This document shows, one piece after another, positions 982-62,173 of a DNA stretch of 64,000 bases. This stretch comes from Pseudomonadota bacterium. Lineage in GTDB: Bacteria > Pseudomonadota > Gammaproteobacteria > Burkholderiales > Rhodocyclaceae. Position 1 is the stretch's first letter. Each line of letters opens with the position of its first letter. The notes beneath the pieces are model-generated. The model searched no databases and was not told the origin of the DNA. It saw only the letters and a list, made by a program, of their open reading frames with translations. Position numbers and translations under genes: made by a program. The DNA lies in contig JAFEFC010000021.1 in the NCBI GenBank assembly GCA_018240785.1, positions 62,001 through 126,000 of the forward strand, written 5' to 3'.

Positions 982-1062
982 GATTCGAGAATCCTGAAAT
1001 GATGGGCAATGGCGCTCGGCCAGATGCCGCATTGCTCTTATCCCTCCCCTTTTCGGGGGAGG
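982..1062 (+). promoter_or_regulatory. ovoA leader: small palindrome and strong hairpin
   Basis: Two inverted repeats lie between the upstream gene and ovoA. GATTC-GA-GAATC at 982-993 is perfect. CCTCCCC (1043-1049) and GGGGAGG (1056-1062) form a 7-bp GC stem with a 6-nt loop. No T-run follows the stem, so it is not a classical terminator. It sits about 28 nt before the chosen ovoA start and would be in the leader transcript. Function is inferred only. Confidence 0.35.
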
Positions 1063-1089
1063 CACTCCGCCACTATCGGGAAACGCAAG

Positions 1090-3258
1090 ATGTGCGATTT
1101 CAAAGACCCCGCCGGTTCATCCCCTGTGCAGAACGCTGCGCCGCGCACGCTTTTCCCGCGCACACCCTTCCTCGCCGGCGCTGACGTCGAGGCCAAGCGG
1201 CGCGAACTGCTCGATTACTTCCACGCCACCTTCGACCGCTATGAGTCGCTGTTCGAAGTGCTCAACGGCGACGAGGCCTACTACAGGAAGCCGATCAGCC
1301 TGCGCCATCCGCTGATCTTCTACTTCGGCCACACCGCGACCTTCTTCATCAACAAGTTCCTGCTCGCCGGCCTGATCGAGCAGCGCATCGATCCGCGCCT
1401 CGAATCCATGTTCGCCGTCGGCGTGGACGAGATGAGCTGGGACGATCTCGACGACACCCGCTACGACTGGCCCACGGTGGCCGAAGTCGCGGACTACCGC
1501 AGGAAGGTGAGGGCAGTGGTCGACCGCGTGATCCGCGAGACGCCCTTCACGCTGCCGATCGGCTGGAAGGATCCGTTCTGGGCGGTGGTCATGGGCATCG
1601 AGCACGAGCGCATCCATCTCGAGACTTCCTCGGTGCTGATGCGCCAGCACGCGCTGCAGTACGTGCAGCCGCATCCTGCCTGGCAGCCCTGCGCCGAGCA
1701 TGGCGAGCCGCCGCAGAACACGCTGGTCGCGATCCCCGCCGGCACCGTGACGCTGGGCCGTGCCTTCGACGAACCCATCTACGGCTGGGACAACGAATAC
1801 GGCCATCATCGCGCCGAGGTGCCGGCCTTCCAGGCCGCGCGCTACCTGGTCAGCAACCGCGAATACCTCAGCTTCGTCGAGGCCGGCGGCTATGCCGACG
1901 ACAGCTTCTGGGACGAGGAAGGCCTGGGCTGGAAGCGCTTCGCCCACGCCGAGCATCCCACCTTCTGGGTGCCGGCTGGCGGCGGCTGGAAGCTGCGCCT
2001 GATGACCGAAGAGGTGCCGATGCGCTGGGACTGGCCGGTGGAGGTCAACTGCCTGGAGGCCCGCGCCTTCTGCCGCTGGAAGGCGCGCGAGACCGGCCAG
2101 CCGGTACGCCTGCCGACCGAGGACGAATGGAACCGCATCCACGATCACGCCGGCTTGGCCGACGTGCCGCACGACGCCCTGGCGAACGCCAACCTGCACC
2201 TCGATCACTGGGCCTCGAGCTGCCCGGTGACGCGCTTCGCGCATGGCGAACTGTTCGACGTGGTCGGCAACGTCTGGCAATGGTGCGAGACGCCGACCTA
2301 TCCCTTCGACGGCTTCGACGTGCATCCCATCTATGACGACTTCACCACGCCGACGTTCGATGACCGCCACGGCATCATCAAGGGGGGAAGCTGGATTTCG
2401 GCGGGCAACGAATCGCGGCACGCCTCGCGCTATGCCTTCCGTCGCCATTTCTTCCAGCACGCGGGCTTCCGCTACATCGTCAGCGACGCGCCGGCGCTCA
2501 ACCCGGCCTCGACCTACGAGACCGACGCGCTGCTGTCGCAGTACGCCGAGTTCCACTACGGCGACGAGGCCTTCGGCGTGCCCAACTTCCCGAAGGCGCT
2601 CGCCGACATCGCCATCGCGGCCCAGCGCCGCTTCGGCAAGGGCAAGTTCGGCCGCGCGCTGGACCTGGGCTGCGCCACCGGCCGCGCAAGCTTCGAGCTG
2701 GCGCGCGCCTTCGAGCGCGTGGTCGGCATCGACTTCTCGGCGCGCTTTATCCAGGCCGGCGTCAAGCTCGCCGAAACCGGCGTGCTGCGCTACACCATGC
2801 CCGACGAGGGCGAGCTGGTGACCTACCACGAGCGCCGGCTCGACGCCCTCGGCCTCGCCGCAACCGCCGGCCGCGTCGAGTTCTGGCAAGGCGACGCCTG
2901 CAACCTGAAGGACGTCTTCACCGGCTTCGACCTCATCCTCGCCGCCAACCTGATCGACCGCCTGTACAGCCCGCGCCGCTTCCTCGCCGACATCGCGCGC
3001 CGGCTCAACCGCGGCGGCCTGCTGCTCCTCGCCTCGCCCTACACCTGGCTGGAGGAGCACACCAAGCGCGAGGAATGGATCGGCGGCTTCAAGAAGGATG
3101 GCGAGTCCTACACCACCCTCGACGGCCTGAAAGACCTCCTCGCCGCCGACTTCGAGCTGGTGCAGGGGCCGCAGTCCGTGCCCTTCGTGATCCGCGAGAC
3201 GCGGCGCAAGCACCAGCACACTTTGTCCGAACTGACCATCTGGAGGCGCCGCGCATGA
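1090..3258 (+). CDS. ovoA: 5-histidylcysteine sulfoxide synthase / 4-mercaptohistidine N-methyltransferase (ovothiol synthase OvoA)
   Basis: OvoA is a non-heme iron enzyme that joins cysteine to histidine C5 with oxygen, giving 5-histidylcysteine sulfoxide. Its C-terminal domain later N-methylates 5-thiohistidine to ovothiol A. Three modules are visible: an N-terminal DinB-like part with the iron-binding HxxxHxE motif (HERIHLE, His172, His176, Glu178), a central FGE-sulfatase/EgtB-like domain (about 220-460, ending GGSWISAGNESRHASRYAFR), and a SAM methyltransferase from about residue 500 with DLGCATGRASFELA. The 722-residue length fits full OvoA and distinguishes it from the shorter EgtB. I chose ATG 1090 because the upstream 27 codons look like leader and contain a hairpin. 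The stop overlaps the next start (ATGA). No OvoB lyase gene is adjacent. Confidence 0.92.
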   Translation: MCDFKDPAGSSPVQNAAPRTLFPRTPFLAGADVEAKRRELLDYFHATFDRYESLFEVLNGDEAYYRKPISLRHPLIFYFGHTATFFINKFLLAGLIEQRIDPRLESMFAVGVDEMSWDDLDDTRYDWPTVAEVADYRRKVRAVVDRVIRETPFTLPIGWKDPFWAVVMGIEHERIHLETSSVLMRQHALQYVQPHPAWQPCAEHGEPPQNTLVAIPAGTVTLGRAFDEPIYGWDNEYGHHRAEVPAFQAARYLVSNREYLSFVEAGGYADDSFWDEEGLGWKRFAHAEHPTFWVPAGGGWKLRLMTEEVPMRWDWPVEVNCLEARAFCRWKARETGQPVRLPTEDEWNRIHDHAGLADVPHDALANANLHLDHWASSCPVTRFAHGELFDVVGNVWQWCETPTYPFDGFDVHPIYDDFTTPTFDDRHGIIKGGSWISAGNESRHASRYAFRRHFFQHAGFRYIVSDAPALNPASTYETDALLSQYAEFHYGDEAFGVPNFPKALADIAIAAQRRFGKGKFGRALDLGCATGRASFELARAFERVVGIDFSARFIQAGVKLAETGVLRYTMPDEGELVTYHERRLDALGLAATAGRVEFWQGDACNLKDVFTGFDLILAANLIDRLYSPRRFLADIARRLNRGGLLLLASPYTWLEEHTKREEWIGGFKKDGESYTTLDGLKDLLAADFELVQGPQSVPFVIRETRRKHQHTLSELTIWRRRA

Positions 3259-4346
3259 CGACCCACAAGACTCTTTCCGTCGCCGATCGCGCCGCCGGCG
3301 CGCTGATGGGCGCCTTCATCGGCGATGCGCTGGCGCTCGGGCCCCACTGGTACTACGACCTCGACGAACTGCGCGCCCGCTACGGCGCGTGGATCTCCGA
3401 CTACACCGCGCCGATGCCCGACCACTACCACGCGGGGATGAAGGCGGGCGAATCCTCGCAGGCCGGCCTGCTGCTGCGCCTCACGCTGGAATCGCTGGCC
3501 GAGCGCGGCGGCTACGACGAAGCCGACTTCTGCCGGCGTATGGACGACGATTTCTTCCCGCACATCGATGGCGTGCCGATGCACGGCCCCGGCGGCTACA
3601 CCAGCCAGTCGATCCGCGAAGCCTGGCGCAAGCGCGTGCAGCAGGGCCTGCCCTGGGGCCAGGTCGCCGGCAACGCCGACACCACCGAGGCGGCCGAGCG
3701 CACGCTCGCCCTCGCGGTGCGCTACGCGCTCGACCCGGCCGCGCTCGCCGACGCGGTGACGCGCAACACCGTGCTCACGCAGACCGACGGCACGGTGGTG
3801 GCGATGACGGTCGCCTTCGGCGCGGTGCTCGGCATGCTGGTCGAGGGGCACACGCTGGACGCCTCCATCTCGGCCAAGCTGATGGCCCGCGTGAAGGCCG
3901 GCGCGCTGCCTTTCCACACCGTGACCGTTGGCAACCTGCAGGCGCCGAAGCCGGGCGCGGCCGAAGCCCCGACCGTCGGCCGCTTTCCCTCGCCGGACGC
4001 GCTGCTCACGCCCTCGGCGATTGCCCGCGCCGCGCACGACCCCGACATCCGCATCGAACCGGCGTGGAAAGTGTCGCTCGTGTATGGCATGCCCTGCGCG
4101 GTGTATCACCAGTTCCAGCCCGCCTACTACCTCGCCGCACGCTTCGCCGACGACTTCGAGTCGGCGGTGCTGCATGCGGTCAATGGCGGCGGCCAGAACC
4201 TGGCGCGGGCGATGCTGACGGGGGCGCTGGTGGGGGCGCAGGTCGGGATCGCCGGCATTCCGCAGCGCTTCATTGAAGGGCTGGAGGAGCGGGAGGCGCT
4301 GCTGGCACTGGTGGGCGGCGTCGCGGCGGAAGCGGCGGGCGCCTGA
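3255..4346 (+). CDS. ADP-ribosylglycohydrolase-fold protein, probable pseudoenzyme, coupled to ovoA
   Basis: The 363-residue product has the overall pattern of the ADP-ribosylglycohydrolase (DraG/ARH, crystallin J1-like) family: N-terminal GALMGAFIGDALALG and C-terminal GALVGAQVGIAGIPQRFIEGLEERE. The metal-binding motifs are replaced. Where family members carry TDDT there is GESSQAG. Where they carry GGDADTTG there is GGQNLARA. Binuclear Mg-dependent ADP-ribose hydrolysis is therefore unlikely, and the protein may bind a different ligand or act structurally. Its ATG overlaps the ovoA stop (ATGA), which implies translational coupling and a role tied to ovothiol. A longer in-frame ORF begins inside ovoA, but the overlap start at 3255 fits the N-terminus of the domain. 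Confidence 0.72.
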   Translation: MTTHKTLSVADRAAGALMGAFIGDALALGPHWYYDLDELRARYGAWISDYTAPMPDHYHAGMKAGESSQAGLLLRLTLESLAERGGYDEADFCRRMDDDFFPHIDGVPMHGPGGYTSQSIREAWRKRVQQGLPWGQVAGNADTTEAAERTLALAVRYALDPAALADAVTRNTVLTQTDGTVVAMTVAFGAVLGMLVEGHTLDASISAKLMARVKAGALPFHTVTVGNLQAPKPGAAEAPTVGRFPSPDALLTPSAIARAAHDPDIRIEPAWKVSLVYGMPCAVYHQFQPAYYLAARFADDFESAVLHAVNGGGQNLARAMLTGALVGAQVGIAGIPQRFIEGLEEREALLALVGGVAAEAAGA

Positions 4347-16238: not shown

Positions 16239-18443
16239 ATGGAAATTAAGGTCAATTTTCTCGACAAGCTTCGTCTTGAAGCCAAGTTCGACGACTTCAC
16301 GGTGGTGGCCGATCAGCCCATCCGCTACAAGGGCGATGGCTCGGCGCCGGGCCCGTTCGATTACTTCCTGGCGTCGTCTGCCTTGTGTGCGGCGTATTTC
16401 GTGAAGTTGTATTGCGAGACGCGCAATATCCCGACCGACAACATCCGCCTGTCGCAGAACAACATCGTTGATCCGGAGAATCGCTACAAGCAGACCTTCA
16501 AGATCCAGGTCGAGTTGCCGGAAGACATCTCCGCGGCTGACCGTCAGGGCATTTTGCGTTCCATCGAGCGGTGCACGGTCAAGAAGGTGGTGCAGACCGG
16601 GCCCGAGTTCGTCATCGAGGTGGTGGAGAATCTGGATGCGGATGCTCAGGCCCTGCTGACGCTGAATCCTGAGTCTGAAGCCCGCACCTATATCGTCGGG
16701 AAGGATCTGCCACTGGAGCAGACCATCGCCAATATGTCGCAGGTGCTGGCGAACCTGGGCATCAAGATCGAGATAGCGTCGTGGCGCAATCTTGTTCCCA
16801 ACGTGTGGTCACTGCATATCCGCGACGCGCACTCGCCGATGTGTTTTACCAATGGCAAGGGCGCAAGCAAGGAAAGCGCGCTGGCGTCGGCGTTGGGTGA
16901 ATTCATCGAGCGCACGAGCTGCAATCATTTCTACAACGACCAGTTCTGGGGGGAGGAGATCGCCAACGCGCCGTTCGTGCACTATCCGAACGAGCGCTGG
17001 TTCAAACTCGGCCCGGATGATTCCTTGCCCGTCGAGATTCTCGACGACTATTGCCTGGGGATCTACGACCCGGATGGTGAGCTGCGTGGCTCGCATTTGT
17101 ACGACACGAATTCCGGCAATGTGGAGCGCGGCATCTGTTCATTGCCGTATGTCCGTCAGTCCGACGGCGCGGTGGTTTATTTTCCGTCCAATCTGATCGA
17201 CAACCTGTTCCTCAGCAACGGCATGAGTGCCGGCAACACGCTGGCCGAGGCAAAGGTGCAATGCCTGTCGGAGATCTTCGAGCGGGCGGTGAAACGCGAG
17301 ATTCTGGAAGGCGAGCTCGCGCTGCCCGATGTGCCGCAGGAGGTGCTGGCGAAGTATCCGGGGATTCTGGCCGGCATCGAAGAGCTGGAAAGGCAGGGTT
17401 TTCCGGTGCTGGTGAAGGATGCGTCGCTGGGCGGGCAGTTTCCGGTGATGTGCGTCACCTTGATGAACCCGCGCACGGGCGGTGTGTTCGCCTCGTTCGG
17501 CGCGCACCCGAGCCTGGAAGTCGCGCTCGAACGCAGTCTGACCGAGTTGCTGCAGGGGCGCAGTTTTGAAGGCTTGAACGATCTGCCACCGCCCACCTTT
17601 GAAAGTAACGCCGTCACCGAGCCCAACAACTTCGTCGAACACTTCATCGACTCCAGCGGTGTGGTGTCGTGGCGCTTCTTCAGTGCCAAGTCCGATTTCG
17701 ATTTCGTCGAGTGGGACTTTTCCGGCCACGGTGAAAACTCCAACGCCGACGAAGCCGCGACCCTGCTCGGCATCCTCGAGGACATGGGCAAGGAAGTATA
17801 TATGGCGGTGTACGACCAGCTCGGCGCCACGGCCTGCCGCATCCTGGTGCCGGGATATTCCGACGTCTATCCGGTGGAAGATCTGATCTGGGACAACACC
17901 AACAAGGCGCTGCTGTTCCGTGACGATATCCTGAACCTGCACCGCCTCGACGATGCAGGTCTGGAAGCGCTCCTTGAGCGTCTGGAAGAGAGCGAGCTCG
18001 ATGATTACATCGACATCATTACCTTGATCGGCATCGAGTTCGACGAGAATACGGTGTGGGGGCAGTTGACGATTCTCGAGTTGAAGCTGCTGATCAATCT
18101 CGCCCTCAAGCAGTTCGAGGCGGCGAAGGAGCGGGTGGAGGCTTTCCTGCAATACAACGAGAACACGGTGGAGCGCGTCCTGTTCTACCAGGCCTTGAAC
18201 GTGGTGCTGGAAGTGCTGCTGGACGATGAACTGGAACTCGACGACTACGAGGTCAATTTCCGCCGGATGTTCGGTAATCCGCGGATGGACGCGGTGTTGG
18301 GGTCGGTGGACGGCAGCGTGCGTTTCTTCGGCCTGACGCCGACGAGCATGAAGCTGGAAGGGCTCGACAGGCACCAGCGGCTGATGGACAGCTACAAGAA
18401 GCTGCACGCGGCGCGCGCCAAGGCGGCGGCTCTGTCCGCTTAG
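16239..18443 (+). CDS. OsmC domain / YcaO domain fusion protein
   Basis: Residues about 1-140 are OsmC-like, with the two cysteines expected of that fold (SALCAAYF and IERCTVKK). Residues about 150-550 are a YcaO domain with the ATP-binding architecture (ASKESALASALGEFIER, EAKVQCLSEIFERAVKREI), and the C-terminal 180 residues are an acidic helical extension like that of E. coli YcaO. YcaO proteins activate amide backbones with ATP. The E. coli protein is linked to RimO-dependent methylthiolation of ribosomal protein S12. The natural OsmC fusion is a known family whose redox role is not established. It is monocistronic, converging with the YkgJ gene. Confidence 0.88.
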   Translation: MEIKVNFLDKLRLEAKFDDFTVVADQPIRYKGDGSAPGPFDYFLASSALCAAYFVKLYCETRNIPTDNIRLSQNNIVDPENRYKQTFKIQVELPEDISAADRQGILRSIERCTVKKVVQTGPEFVIEVVENLDADAQALLTLNPESEARTYIVGKDLPLEQTIANMSQVLANLGIKIEIASWRNLVPNVWSLHIRDAHSPMCFTNGKGASKESALASALGEFIERTSCNHFYNDQFWGEEIANAPFVHYPNERWFKLGPDDSLPVEILDDYCLGIYDPDGELRGSHLYDTNSGNVERGICSLPYVRQSDGAVVYFPSNLIDNLFLSNGMSAGNTLAEAKVQCLSEIFERAVKREILEGELALPDVPQEVLAKYPGILAGIEELERQGFPVLVKDASLGGQFPVMCVTLMNPRTGGVFASFGAHPSLEVALERSLTELLQGRSFEGLNDLPPPTFESNAVTEPNNFVEHFIDSSGVVSWRFFSAKSDFDFVEWDFSGHGENSNADEAATLLGILEDMGKEVYMAVYDQLGATACRILVPGYSDVYPVEDLIWDNTNKALLFRDDILNLHRLDDAGLEALLERLEESELDDYIDIITLIGIEFDENTVWGQLTILELKLLINLALKQFEAAKERVEAFLQYNENTVERVLFYQALNVVLEVLLDDELELDDYEVNFRRMFGNPRMDAVLGSVDGSVRFFGLTPTSMKLEGLDRHQRLMDSYKKLHAARAKAAALSA

Positions 18444-31812: not shown

Positions 31813-33756
31813 ATGGCACTCTCTGATCTGACAGTCCGGCAGGCAAGAACCACCGGCAAGCGCTACACCCTCTCCGATAACGACTGCCTGGGCCTGATGG
31901 TCTCTGCCGCAGGCGGCAAGTCGTGGATCTTCCGATACTACTGGCTGGGCAAGCAAAAGCGCATGTCCCTGGGTGGCTATCCCGCCCTCAGTCTGCGCGA
32001 GGCCCGCGCCGAGCGGGACAAGGCTCAGGTTCTGCTCGCCAAGGGCATTGATCCCCAAATCGAACGCGACCAGCGCCGGCACGCGGCCAAGCTGGCGGGC
32101 GAATACACCTTCAAGAACGTCTTCGATGCTTGGGTCGAGCATCGCCGCAAGGAACTCAAGGAAGGCCGTCAGAGCACGCTTTCGCAGATCCTGCGCATCT
32201 TCAACAAGGACGTGCTGCCTACCCTGGGGAAGATGTCGATCTACGACATTCGACGGCCCCAGCTCGTGGGCGTCGTGGCGGCGATCGAGAAACGCAAGGC
32301 GTTCACCACCGCCGAGAAGGTCCGCACCTGGTTCAACCAGATGTTCCGCTATGCCCTGGTCATCGCCGAAGGGCTGGAAGTCAATCCGGCCGCGGACCTG
32401 GACGTGGTGGCCGAGCCCAAGCCCCCGGTGGCCCACAACCCCTATCTGCACCTGCCCGAGCTGCCCGAGTTCCTTCAGAAGCTCCGGCGCTACAACCCCC
32501 GGGGCTGGCAGACCCAGCTTGGCGTCCGGCTGCTGTTCCTGACGGGGGTGCGCACGGGCGAGTTGCGCCTGGCCGAGCCTGAGCAATTCGACCTCGACCG
32601 CGGCTTGTGGATCATCCCGCCGCAGGTCGTCAAGCAACTCCAGGACGAAATGCGCAAGGCCGGCAAGCGGCCGCAGGACGTGCCGCCCTACATCGTGCCC
32701 CTGTCCCTGCAGGCCATCGAGATCGTGCGCTATCTCCTGGGCGTGATGCGTCCAGCGCAGAAGTACCTGCTGTCGCATCGCAGCGAACTCAAGAAGCGCA
32801 TCAGCGAGAACACCCTCAACAAGGCCGTGCAGCTCATGGGCTACGAGGGGCGCCTGACCGGCCACGGCATCCGCGGCACCATCTCGACCGCGCTCAACGA
32901 GATCGGATACCCGAAGATTTGGGTGGACGCTCAGCTTTCGCACTCCGACCCCAACAAGGTGAGTTCGGCCTACAACCACGCCAAGTACGTGGAGCCTCGG
33001 CGTCGCATGATGCAGGACTGGGCAGACCGTCTTGACCTGCTCGAACAGGGTGAAGTCGAAGCCGCGAGCGCGCATCTGACCATCCGTATCGACGGGGTGC
33101 CGGCAATGGCGGAAGTGGAGGAAGTGGTGGGCGCGGTCTCCACGACTGCTGAGCCTGTTGTCCCCGGCGTGCCGCCCGTGGTGGCCACGCCTATCGTCGT
33201 GACCCCCAACAGCGGCGGAATCATGTTCCAGCGGCTGTCGCAGGTGCCGCCGCCTCCGGTGCATGCCCCGGAGCCGGAAGTCTCCGCGATCCAGCGCGAG
33301 CGCGAGGAAATGCTGGCCATCTACGAGTCGCCGAACAATCTGCCGGTCCCGCTGTTCGGCAAGCTGGCCGGGAAGTCCAAGGACCAGATCAACCGCGAGC
33401 TGAAGGCGGGCAAGCTGCTGTCGATCAGCCTGGGCAACCGGGGGCAGCGGGTTCCCGACTGGCAACTGGTGCCGCTCAAGCACAAGCTGGCCCAAGTGCT
33501 CATGAACCAATGCCCGCACGCCGATTCGTGGGACCTGTACCGCATGCTGACCCAGCCTCACCCCGACCTGGGTGATCGTGCGGCCATTGATGCGGTCACG
33601 CCAACGAACGTGCCCGCAATCATCCGGGTTCTCATGGGCGACTACCAGCACCATGCGGATGTGCCCGAGGCCGTTGCCCCGCGGCCCATCCCCGAGGACG
33701 TGCGGCAGAGCGTCCGCCGACTGGTGGACAGCGCAGCGGTGCTTGAAGGGGTCTAG
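31813..33756 (+). CDS. int: Tyrosine recombinase/integrase of ICEclc type
   Basis: The 647-residue P4-like site-specific recombinase has an N-terminal DUF4102-type arm-binding domain (GLMVSAAGGKSWIFRY, MSLGGYPALSLREARAERD) and a catalytic domain with Arg in FLTGVRTGELR, the HGIRGT box, a second His in LSHSDPNK and the Tyr in SAYNHAKY. About 220 residues follow the catalytic domain, as in integrases of ICEclc relatives, which insert at tRNA-Gly and are longer than P4 integrase. It would insert and excise the element. AGGAG precedes ATG 31813. Confidence 0.92.
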   Translation: MALSDLTVRQARTTGKRYTLSDNDCLGLMVSAAGGKSWIFRYYWLGKQKRMSLGGYPALSLREARAERDKAQVLLAKGIDPQIERDQRRHAAKLAGEYTFKNVFDAWVEHRRKELKEGRQSTLSQILRIFNKDVLPTLGKMSIYDIRRPQLVGVVAAIEKRKAFTTAEKVRTWFNQMFRYALVIAEGLEVNPAADLDVVAEPKPPVAHNPYLHLPELPEFLQKLRRYNPRGWQTQLGVRLLFLTGVRTGELRLAEPEQFDLDRGLWIIPPQVVKQLQDEMRKAGKRPQDVPPYIVPLSLQAIEIVRYLLGVMRPAQKYLLSHRSELKKRISENTLNKAVQLMGYEGRLTGHGIRGTISTALNEIGYPKIWVDAQLSHSDPNKVSSAYNHAKYVEPRRRMMQDWADRLDLLEQGEVEAASAHLTIRIDGVPAMAEVEEVVGAVSTTAEPVVPGVPPVVATPIVVTPNSGGIMFQRLSQVPPPPVHAPEPEVSAIQREREEMLAIYESPNNLPVPLFGKLAGKSKDQINRELKAGKLLSISLGNRGQRVPDWQLVPLKHKLAQVLMNQCPHADSWDLYRMLTQPHPDLGDRAAIDAVTPTNVPAIIRVLMGDYQHHADVPEAVAPRPIPEDVRQSVRRLVDSAAVLEGV

Positions 33757-62000: not shown

Positions 62001-62173
62001 GTGCGGGCGCCGAGATGCGCCACGCCATGGGCATCGCGGTGTTCGCCGGCATGCTGGGCGTGACGGTATTCGGCCTGGTGCTGACGCCGGTGTTCTACGT
62101 TGTGGTGCGCAAGCTGGCGCTGCGCCGCGAAGCGCGCCATGCCCGTGGCGGCATGACCGACCAGCACGCATGA
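58997..62173 (+). CDS. HAE1-family multidrug RND permease (MexF/AcrB-like)
   Basis: 1058-residue inner-membrane drug/proton antiporter. It begins MNFPRFFINRPIFAIVLSVL, with SEYPQVTPPTVQVTASYPGA, and TM4 carries GIVVDDAIVVVENVER with both essential Asp residues. The TM10-11 region (GLAAKNAILIVEFA) is typical of HAE1. It has no metal-type HME motif, so organic compounds are the expected substrates. Middle gene of a three-part efflux operon. Confidence 0.93.
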   Translation: MNFPRFFINRPIFAIVLSVLMLIAGAISYFQLPLSEYPQVTPPTVQVTASYPGANPQVIADTVASPLEQAINGVEGMMYMQSQMSTDGKMVLTVSFEQHINADIAQIQVQNRVSRALPRLPPEVQRIGVVTEKTSPDVLMVVHLLSPGGRYDPLYVSNYATLHVKDELARTPGVGDVLVWGAGEYSMRVWLEPAKVAARGLIASDVVAAIREQNIQVAAGSVGQQPDASAAFQVTVNTLGRLSSEEQFGEIVVKTGADGQVTRLRDVARISMGADSYSLRSLLNGEPAVGIQIIQSPGANALDVSSAVRAAMDRLQAKFPDGIEYSVAYDPTVFVRASLQSVAVTLLEAIFLVVIVVVLFLQSWRASIIPLIAVPVSLVGTFAVMHMFGFSLNTLSLFGLVLSIGIVVDDAIVVVENVERHIALGESPKDAARKAMDEVTGPILAITSVLAAVFIPSAFLSGLQGEFYRQFALTIAFSTILSAINSLTLSPALAAILLKPHHGAAKPDRLTRIIDGVFGGFFRRFNRFFDRASNSYVGGVRRAVRGSAIVLLLYVGFLGLTWLGFHKVPAGFVPAQDKYYLVGIAQLPTGASLDRTEAVVKEMTKIALAEPGVESVVAFPGLSVNGPVNQPNTALMFAMLKPFDERKDPSLSAFAIQGKLMGKFSQIPDGFVGIFPPPPVPGLGSMGGFKLQIEDRAGLGPEALAQAQGQIMGKAMQAPELANMLASFQTNAPQLQVDIDRVKAKSQGVSLTEVFDTLQVNLGSLYVNDFNRFGRTYRVMAQADAQFRMQAEDIGMLKVRNAAGDMIPLSAIATIERSSGPDRVMHYNGFPSADISGGPAPGYSSGQATAAIEKIVSESLPDGMTYEWTDLTFQEKRVGNTAIYIFALAVLLAFLFLAAQYNSWSLPFAVLLIAPMALLSAIAGVWLSGGDNNIFTQIGFVVLVGLAAKNAILIVEFARAKESEGADPLAAVLEAARLRLRPILMTSFAFIAGVVPLVLASGAGAEMRHAMGIAVFAGMLGVTVFGLVLTPVFYVVVRKLALRREARHARGGMTDQHA

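Follow-up and report, generated by a model that had tools for sequence, protein, structure and literature searches.

The gene directly after ovoA, the synthase gene for the antioxidant ovothiol, in a 64,000-nucleotide stretch of Rhodocyclaceae DNA (assembly GCA_018240785.1, contig JAFEFC010000021.1, forward-strand positions 62,001 to 126,000; the whole stretch is here called the window) codes for a protein with the fold of the ADP-ribosylhydrolases (ARH), in which the residues of the family's active site have been exchanged for another, strictly conserved set. Such proteins make up a new form of the ARH fold with a wide distribution, and in a survey of the window's class every genome with its gene also has ovoA. 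Judged from its sequence, it would be a neofunctionalised ARH fold that acts on a 5-thiohistidine species and not a Mg-dependent ADP-ribosylhydrolase, a reading that we favour while granting it somewhat less than an even chance. The window itself is a Thauera-like stretch of a 4.7 Mb assembly and, among the best 80 of 417 relatives, the closest named relative of the ARH protein comes from Thauera sp. 2A1 (95%).

The ovoA-ARH gene pair

The product of the upstream gene contains both halves of OvoA, each above the profile cut-off (Table 1); as homology begins at its residue 52, translation of ovoA may truly begin at an internal ATG close to 1090. An earlier note on this DNA gave the coordinates, the reading frame and the overlap of the two genes correctly: the ATG of the ARH gene occupies 3255-3257 and the TGA stop of ovoA 3256-3258, and because the reading frames overlap, translation of the ARH gene is probably coupled to that of ovoA. 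The same ATGA start is found in all nine genomes of the genus that carry the ARH gene, with the qualification that in G009 it is the surrounding bases that are identical, the ovoA frame itself not having been printed. The overlap is not universal in Thauera: in two other loci (L057 and L058, T. aminoaromatica) ovoA ends about 4 kb before the ARH gene. In Thauera phenolivorans (L121:3738-7059) the two genes adjoin on opposite strands without overlap.

An ARH fold with a rebuilt active site

The protein covers the complete ARH family profile (PF03747, positions 1-287 of 287) with 179.2 bits against a cut-off of 26.2, and has the alpha-helical ARH fold. It scores only 34.9 bits with the DraG equivalog model TIGR02662, below the cut-off of 337.05, and the profiles of pyridoxal phosphate (PLP) enzymes PF00155 and TIGR04350 do not match it at E-values up to 1. 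To place the active-site motifs, we set the register by alignment with two intact paralogues (L210 and L211), DraG and MJ1187. The metal-binding TDDT motif is replaced by S68-Q69-A70-G71; among 67 aligned relatives S68 and Q69 are invariant, position 70 is Ala or Ser in all, and G71 is retained in 66, with Ala in the remaining one. The loss of this motif had been recognised in the earlier note and is borne out by the intact paralogues as well as DraG and MJ1187; the GESSQ that was put in its place, however, begins three residues too early. The second metal-binding motif, GGDADTT, corresponds to GGQNLAR (residues 312-318), just as had been proposed, with G312, G313, Q314, N315 and R318 invariant (GGQN-x-A/S-R in 67 of 67). 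The canonical ligand positions hold neutral or basic residues; the variable position 316 is Leu, Met or Gln, apart from two of the 67 relatives with Glu. A third change had escaped notice: the flap glutamate (Glu28 of DraG, Glu41 of ARH3) is replaced by H31, and all 67 aligned relatives, like all 16 sequences of the control set described below, have His here. Moreover, the THNH (THxH) of intact relatives reads TQTD in the window protein and TQxD across its family.

The complete list of residues fixed in all 67 relatives comprises H31, H59, S68, Q69, D142, E145, E148, R149, Q176, D178, H221, D248, C281, H285, N310, G311-G313, Q314, N315 and R318. As 57 of the aligned sequences came from a scan with peptide patterns (YGMPCA[IV]Y and HA[VI]NGGGQ), the way they were chosen partly favoured C281 and the NGGGQ stretch. 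We therefore assembled 16 sequences obtained independently of the patterns, namely the ten rows of the alignment that came from genome searches and six Desulfobacterota sequences found by profile. All 16 have H31, H59, S68, Q69, D142, E145, R149, D178, D248, C281, N310-G313, N315 and R318; 15 have Q314 and E148 and 14 have Q176, H221 and H285, all departures lying in G477 and G667. This check leaves the relative standing of the competing readings unchanged. The two exceptional Desulfobacterota members (L199 in G477 and L203 in G667) are diverged, with His at 176, no His at 221 or 285 and no ovoA detected, and perhaps form a second functional subgroup. The ARH protein is also well conserved as a whole: across 38 genomes with both genes its mean identity between genomes is 72%, versus 64% for the N-terminal half of OvoA, and it is the more conserved of the two in 636 of 703 genome pairs.

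Since the replacement residues are strictly conserved, the active site has been rebuilt and not eroded. According to the available text of PMC7050489, it is a binuclear metal centre that activates ARH enzymes, and in ARH3 the flap Glu is crucial. With the metal ligands and the flap Glu both replaced, activity as an ADP-ribosylhydrolase of the known sort is unlikely. The shared fold might still speak for an ADP-ribosylhydrolase that works through other residues or metals; we consider this highly improbable, given the replacement of the metal-centre and flap positions in 67 of 67 relatives and of THNH by TQxD, and given the account of ARH enzymes in the available text of PMC7050489. The suggestion in the earlier note of a repurposed fold is thereby supported by the match to the fold, the loss of the ligands and the fixed replacements.

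Co-occurrence with ovoA

Among 13 genomes of the genus, nine have both the ARH gene and an ovoA scoring over the cut-off and four have neither, with no mixed cases (Fisher P 0.0014), though two of those four are only 68% and 89% complete. For the class we surveyed 369 evenly drawn genomes, calling the ARH gene at an E-value of 1e-10 and ovoA above its cut-off. The ARH gene is present in nine and ovoA in 19 (a 5% background), and all nine ARH carriers have ovoA (hypergeometric P 2.9e-13, or 5.7e-12 without the window's genome). These carriers belong to eight genera and eight families, and in six of them the two genes lie on different contigs or more than 200 kb apart. Genomes with the ARH gene are scattered over the OvoA tree, and the link is therefore not the inheritance of one clade. 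Hence, the link between the ARH gene and ovoA is real and is mostly not one of adjacency.

The named relatives point the same way. The pattern scan found 417 relatives, the best 80 of which were analysed as named loci. In 13 of the 80 ovoA lies in the examined flank, adjoining the ARH gene in 11 and separated from it by about 4 kb in L057 and L058. From the remaining 67 we tested 49 genomes for ovoA, omitting 18 (11 with Zoogloea titles and seven metagenome contigs), and 41 of the 49 have it elsewhere in the genome. Where the genes are close, they come in several arrangements: overlapping by ATGA in Thauera, as same-strand neighbours in Rhodocyclus purpureus (L092), a metagenome-assembled genome (L119) and G171, in the order ovoA-lyase-ARH in G027, and on opposite strands in T. 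phenolivorans. The association with OvoA that the earlier note had drawn from a single locus thus recurs in other genomes, both as adjacency in varied forms and as co-occurrence at a distance. As such proteins mostly occur in genomes with ovoA, the ARH protein is a good candidate for an ovothiol-related enzyme. The Zoogloea oleivorans genome (G392, locus L064) has three copies of ovoA.

Several observations weigh against a strict tie to ovothiol. Ten of the 19 ovoA genomes of the class do without the ARH gene, and one of the nine class carriers (G171) has a broken copy. No ovoA was detected in eight of the 49 tested named carriers, G420 among them; seven of these eight are titled as metagenome-assembled genomes and seven have Desulfobacterota-type titles, and one, an Azonexus metagenome-assembled genome (L111), belongs to the window's own class. 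In 247 Desulfobacterota genomes of unstated completeness the ARH gene occurs in seven, ovoA in nine and both in two, with a P of 0.023 when the centre genome, chosen for having both genes, is included and of 0.18 when it is left out. In the 13-genome Geobacter family to which that centre belongs, likewise of unstated completeness, five have both genes (two of them chosen beforehand as carriers), two only the ARH gene, three only ovoA and three neither (P 0.59). The carriers in these groups without detected ovoA are G686, G690, G470, G477, G420, G644 and G667, and three of them (G470, G420 and G644) keep every listed fixed residue. Because of these exceptions, a rule by which the ARH gene implies ovoA fits the class survey and is not universal.

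The Desulfobacterota and Geobacter-family figures would suit the view that a shared lifestyle or ancestry has brought the two genes together, in one locus or in one genome, by accident. We rate this the least probable of the explanations considered, in light of the class result over eight genera at a 5% background, the several gene arrangements and the scatter on the OvoA tree.

Two related observations may be recorded here. The broken copy in G171 (L166:9440-10700) directly follows ovoA and is split between reading frames, which might reflect a decaying gene or assembly errors. Further, Geobacter and other Desulfobacterota are known mainly as anaerobes, and OvoA is an enzyme of oxidative coupling; it is nonetheless encoded in genomes of both.

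The OvoB-type lyase

A more specific proposal of the earlier note was that the ARH protein replaces the missing OvoB step. In that role it would cleave 5-histidylcysteine sulfoxide to 5-thiohistidine without PLP. We inspected 20 ovoA neighbourhoods, 18 from the 19 ovoA genomes of the class (all but the window's) and two from members of the order. A PLP-type gene lies directly 3' of ovoA in at least 14 of them, at least 12 taken from the neighbourhood listing and two (G212 and G300) recognised by position. Of four such genes scanned with profiles, two, in G343 and G027, score over the cut-off as PatB-family C-S lyases (545 and 472 bits), and the other two, in G086 and G159 (L164 and L165), belong to another PF00155 type, whose nearest NCBIfam model, GntC, scores below its cut-off; the latter are possibly a second type of OvoB. 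The other PLP genes were assigned by sequence similarity or by a PatB profile search, and a PatB match over the cut-off stands beside ovoA in the ARH carriers G343, G027, G178, G212, G289 and G300. From their position and family we infer that these lyases are OvoB.

With such a lyase beside ovoA in six of the nine class carriers, and ovoA, lyase and ARH gene in that order in G027, a general replacement of OvoB by the ARH protein is not supported; we also know of no precedent for a C-S lyase on the ARH fold. For the window's own species the proposal retains some footing: in a search of 24 genomes, a PatB-family match was absent from six with both genes (G000, G001, G003, G007, G171 and G365, the window's species included), and an EgtE-type lyase over the cut-off was found in none of the 24, the window's species included, other broad beta-lyases not having been searched for. 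We nevertheless regard OvoB replacement as improbable.

Proposed function and its rivals

We propose that the ARH protein would take part in thiohistidine metabolism, more likely as an enzyme acting on a small molecule than as a binding protein, and would work beside OvoA and the C-S lyase. Its binuclear metal site is gone, as are the flap glutamate and the THxH of intact relatives, and a different set is fixed instead: H31, H59, S68-Q69, D142/E145/R149, D178, D248, C281, NGGG.N and R318, together with E148, Q176, H221, H285 and Q314 in all except the two diverged members. The putative refitted pocket would hold a 5-thiohistidine species, perhaps a conjugate or the disulfide of ovothiol, which might be processed without the Mg/Mn chemistry of the family. 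A candidate reaction is the deconjugation or regeneration of ovothiol, which would fit both the hydrolase fold and the OsmC neighbours described below. Taken as a separate claim, a metal-free or differently metallated ARH-fold enzyme, with His, Cys, Asp/Glu and NGGG.N fixed in its rebuilt site, that uses, regenerates or deconjugates ovothiol is a possibility that we advance tentatively. An enzyme is preferred over a scaffold because many fixed residues of catalytic type occupy the former substrate and metal positions.

The contrary idea is of a non-catalytic pseudoenzyme whose direct contact with OvoA would stabilise, activate or regulate it; this echoes the dedicated partner or chaperone of the earlier note. 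The ATGA start in all nine carriers of the genus and the loss of the catalytic ligands are what such a partner might show. We hold it to be unlikely, as ovoA lies in the examined flank of only 13 of the 80 named loci, some carriers lack a detected ovoA, the ARH gene is absent from 10 of the 19 class genomes with ovoA, and the former catalytic and substrate positions hold fixed residues. Overall, the repurposed fold and the link to OvoA have held up; a general OvoB replacement has not, and a dedicated partner is weakened, since most examined carriers keep the genes apart and several have the ARH gene without detected ovoA.

The gene neighbourhoods bring in a further alternative. OsmC, a family of peroxide reductases, is the only recurrent functional neighbour of the ARH gene seen besides ovoA in the 112 loci examined. 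A fusion of an alpha/beta hydrolase with OsmC lies directly downstream in six of them (L095, L099, L100, L103, L105 and L200), with Geobacter-type titles for L095, L099, L103 and L105 and only a short partial match in L100. An OsmC-YcaO fusion follows 0.3, 1.4 and 3.7 kb downstream in L071, L060 and L102, respectively, its N-terminal OsmC domain having been scored in L071. In Desulfobacterota, where the ovoA link weakens, an OsmC fusion recurs beside the ARH gene. These neighbours point weakly to thiol/peroxide chemistry. It is conceivable, accordingly, that the repurposed ARH fold serves as a general thiol/peroxide-stress protein found often, but not obligatorily, with ovothiol. The two sets of OsmC fusions, the homologue of the OsmC-YcaO proteins 12 kb downstream in the window and the Desulfobacterota carriers without detected ovoA, three of them with every listed residue, all speak for it; all nine class carriers have ovoA, however, as do all six genomes with the alpha/beta hydrolase-OsmC fusion, where it lies elsewhere in the genome. 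We judge this alternative somewhat unlikely.

Relation to known systems

The window protein resembles DraG, ARH1 and ARH3 (PF03747) in fold, length, domain order, the GDA. and GG. loops and the C-terminal helices, and differs in the replaced metal ligands, in having His for the flap Glu and TQxD for THNH, and in an insert with H221 and D248. A second noncanonical ARH paralogue (L219 in G343) shares several of these departures, with the flap HWLYD, AGDSSGYGE in place of TDDT and GR in the last motif, while retaining GGD there (GGDSCGR) and lacking most of the H221 insert; with 51.7 bits it scores highest with the family profile of four paralogues compared. We know of no ovothiol link for human ARH2. 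That vertebrate protein, likened here by description only, also has the ARH fold and is suspected, in the available text of PMC7050489, of lacking catalytic activity.

On the ovothiol side, the OvoB/PatB-type C-S lyase is likewise a frequent gene next to ovoA, directly after it, but it is a PLP enzyme of unrelated fold that co-occurs with the ARH protein. A comparable case is the 5-thiohistidine N-acetyltransferase (5THNAT), likewise an accessory protein associated with ovoA that came to light through its genomic neighbourhood, which differs in being a GNAT-type acetyltransferase, mostly of Bacteroidota, with a known product (PMC12631010, available text). In the open-access literature searched it is the only ovoA-associated accessory enzyme that we met (PMC12631010, available text), and no ovoA-ARH link was found there.

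If the proposed function is correct, bacterial ovothiol metabolism would gain another protein, one that ranks among the first known to rely on a 5-thiohistidine. To our knowledge the ARH fold would then have its first member acting on something that is not an ADP-ribose compound, which would illustrate the conversion of an ADP-ribose fold to another use. The protein is conserved and follows ovoA across families of the class; Thauera, Zoogloea, Nitrosomonas and Geobacter are among the genera open to study. The Pfam match alone would name it an ADP-ribosylglycohydrolase, a name that the absent ligands contradict.

Other features of the window

Table 1. Features of the window discussed in the text
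Feature	Position	Strand	Basis or remark
ovoA: 5-histidylcysteine sulfoxide synthase with C-terminal methyltransferase domain	1009..3258	+	TIGR04344 699 bits, TIGR04345 338 bits
GGAGG, Shine-Dalgarno-like, 8 bases 5' of ARH start	3242..3246	+	sequence
ATGA, overlap of ovoA stop and ARH start	3255..3258	+	sequence; 9/9 carriers in genus
ARH-fold protein with replaced active site, 363 aa	3255..4346	+	
H31 codon, replaces flap glutamate (DraG Glu28, ARH3 Glu41)	3345..3347	+	alignment with intact paralogues
S68-Q69-A70-G71 codons, replace metal-binding TDDT	3456..3467	+	paralogue/DraG alignment
GGQNLAR codons (residues 312-318), replace metal-binding GGDADTT	4188..4208	+	alignment
YcaO-domain protein, homologue of OsmC-YcaO fusions	16239-18440	+	12 kb downstream of ARH
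tRNA gene, then phage-type integrase (31813-33753), then metal-transport-like gene run	31511-63483		

The last region of Table 1 looks like a tRNA-integrated metal-resistance island, its metal-transport-like genes including a heavy-metal P-type ATPase and two RND pumps.

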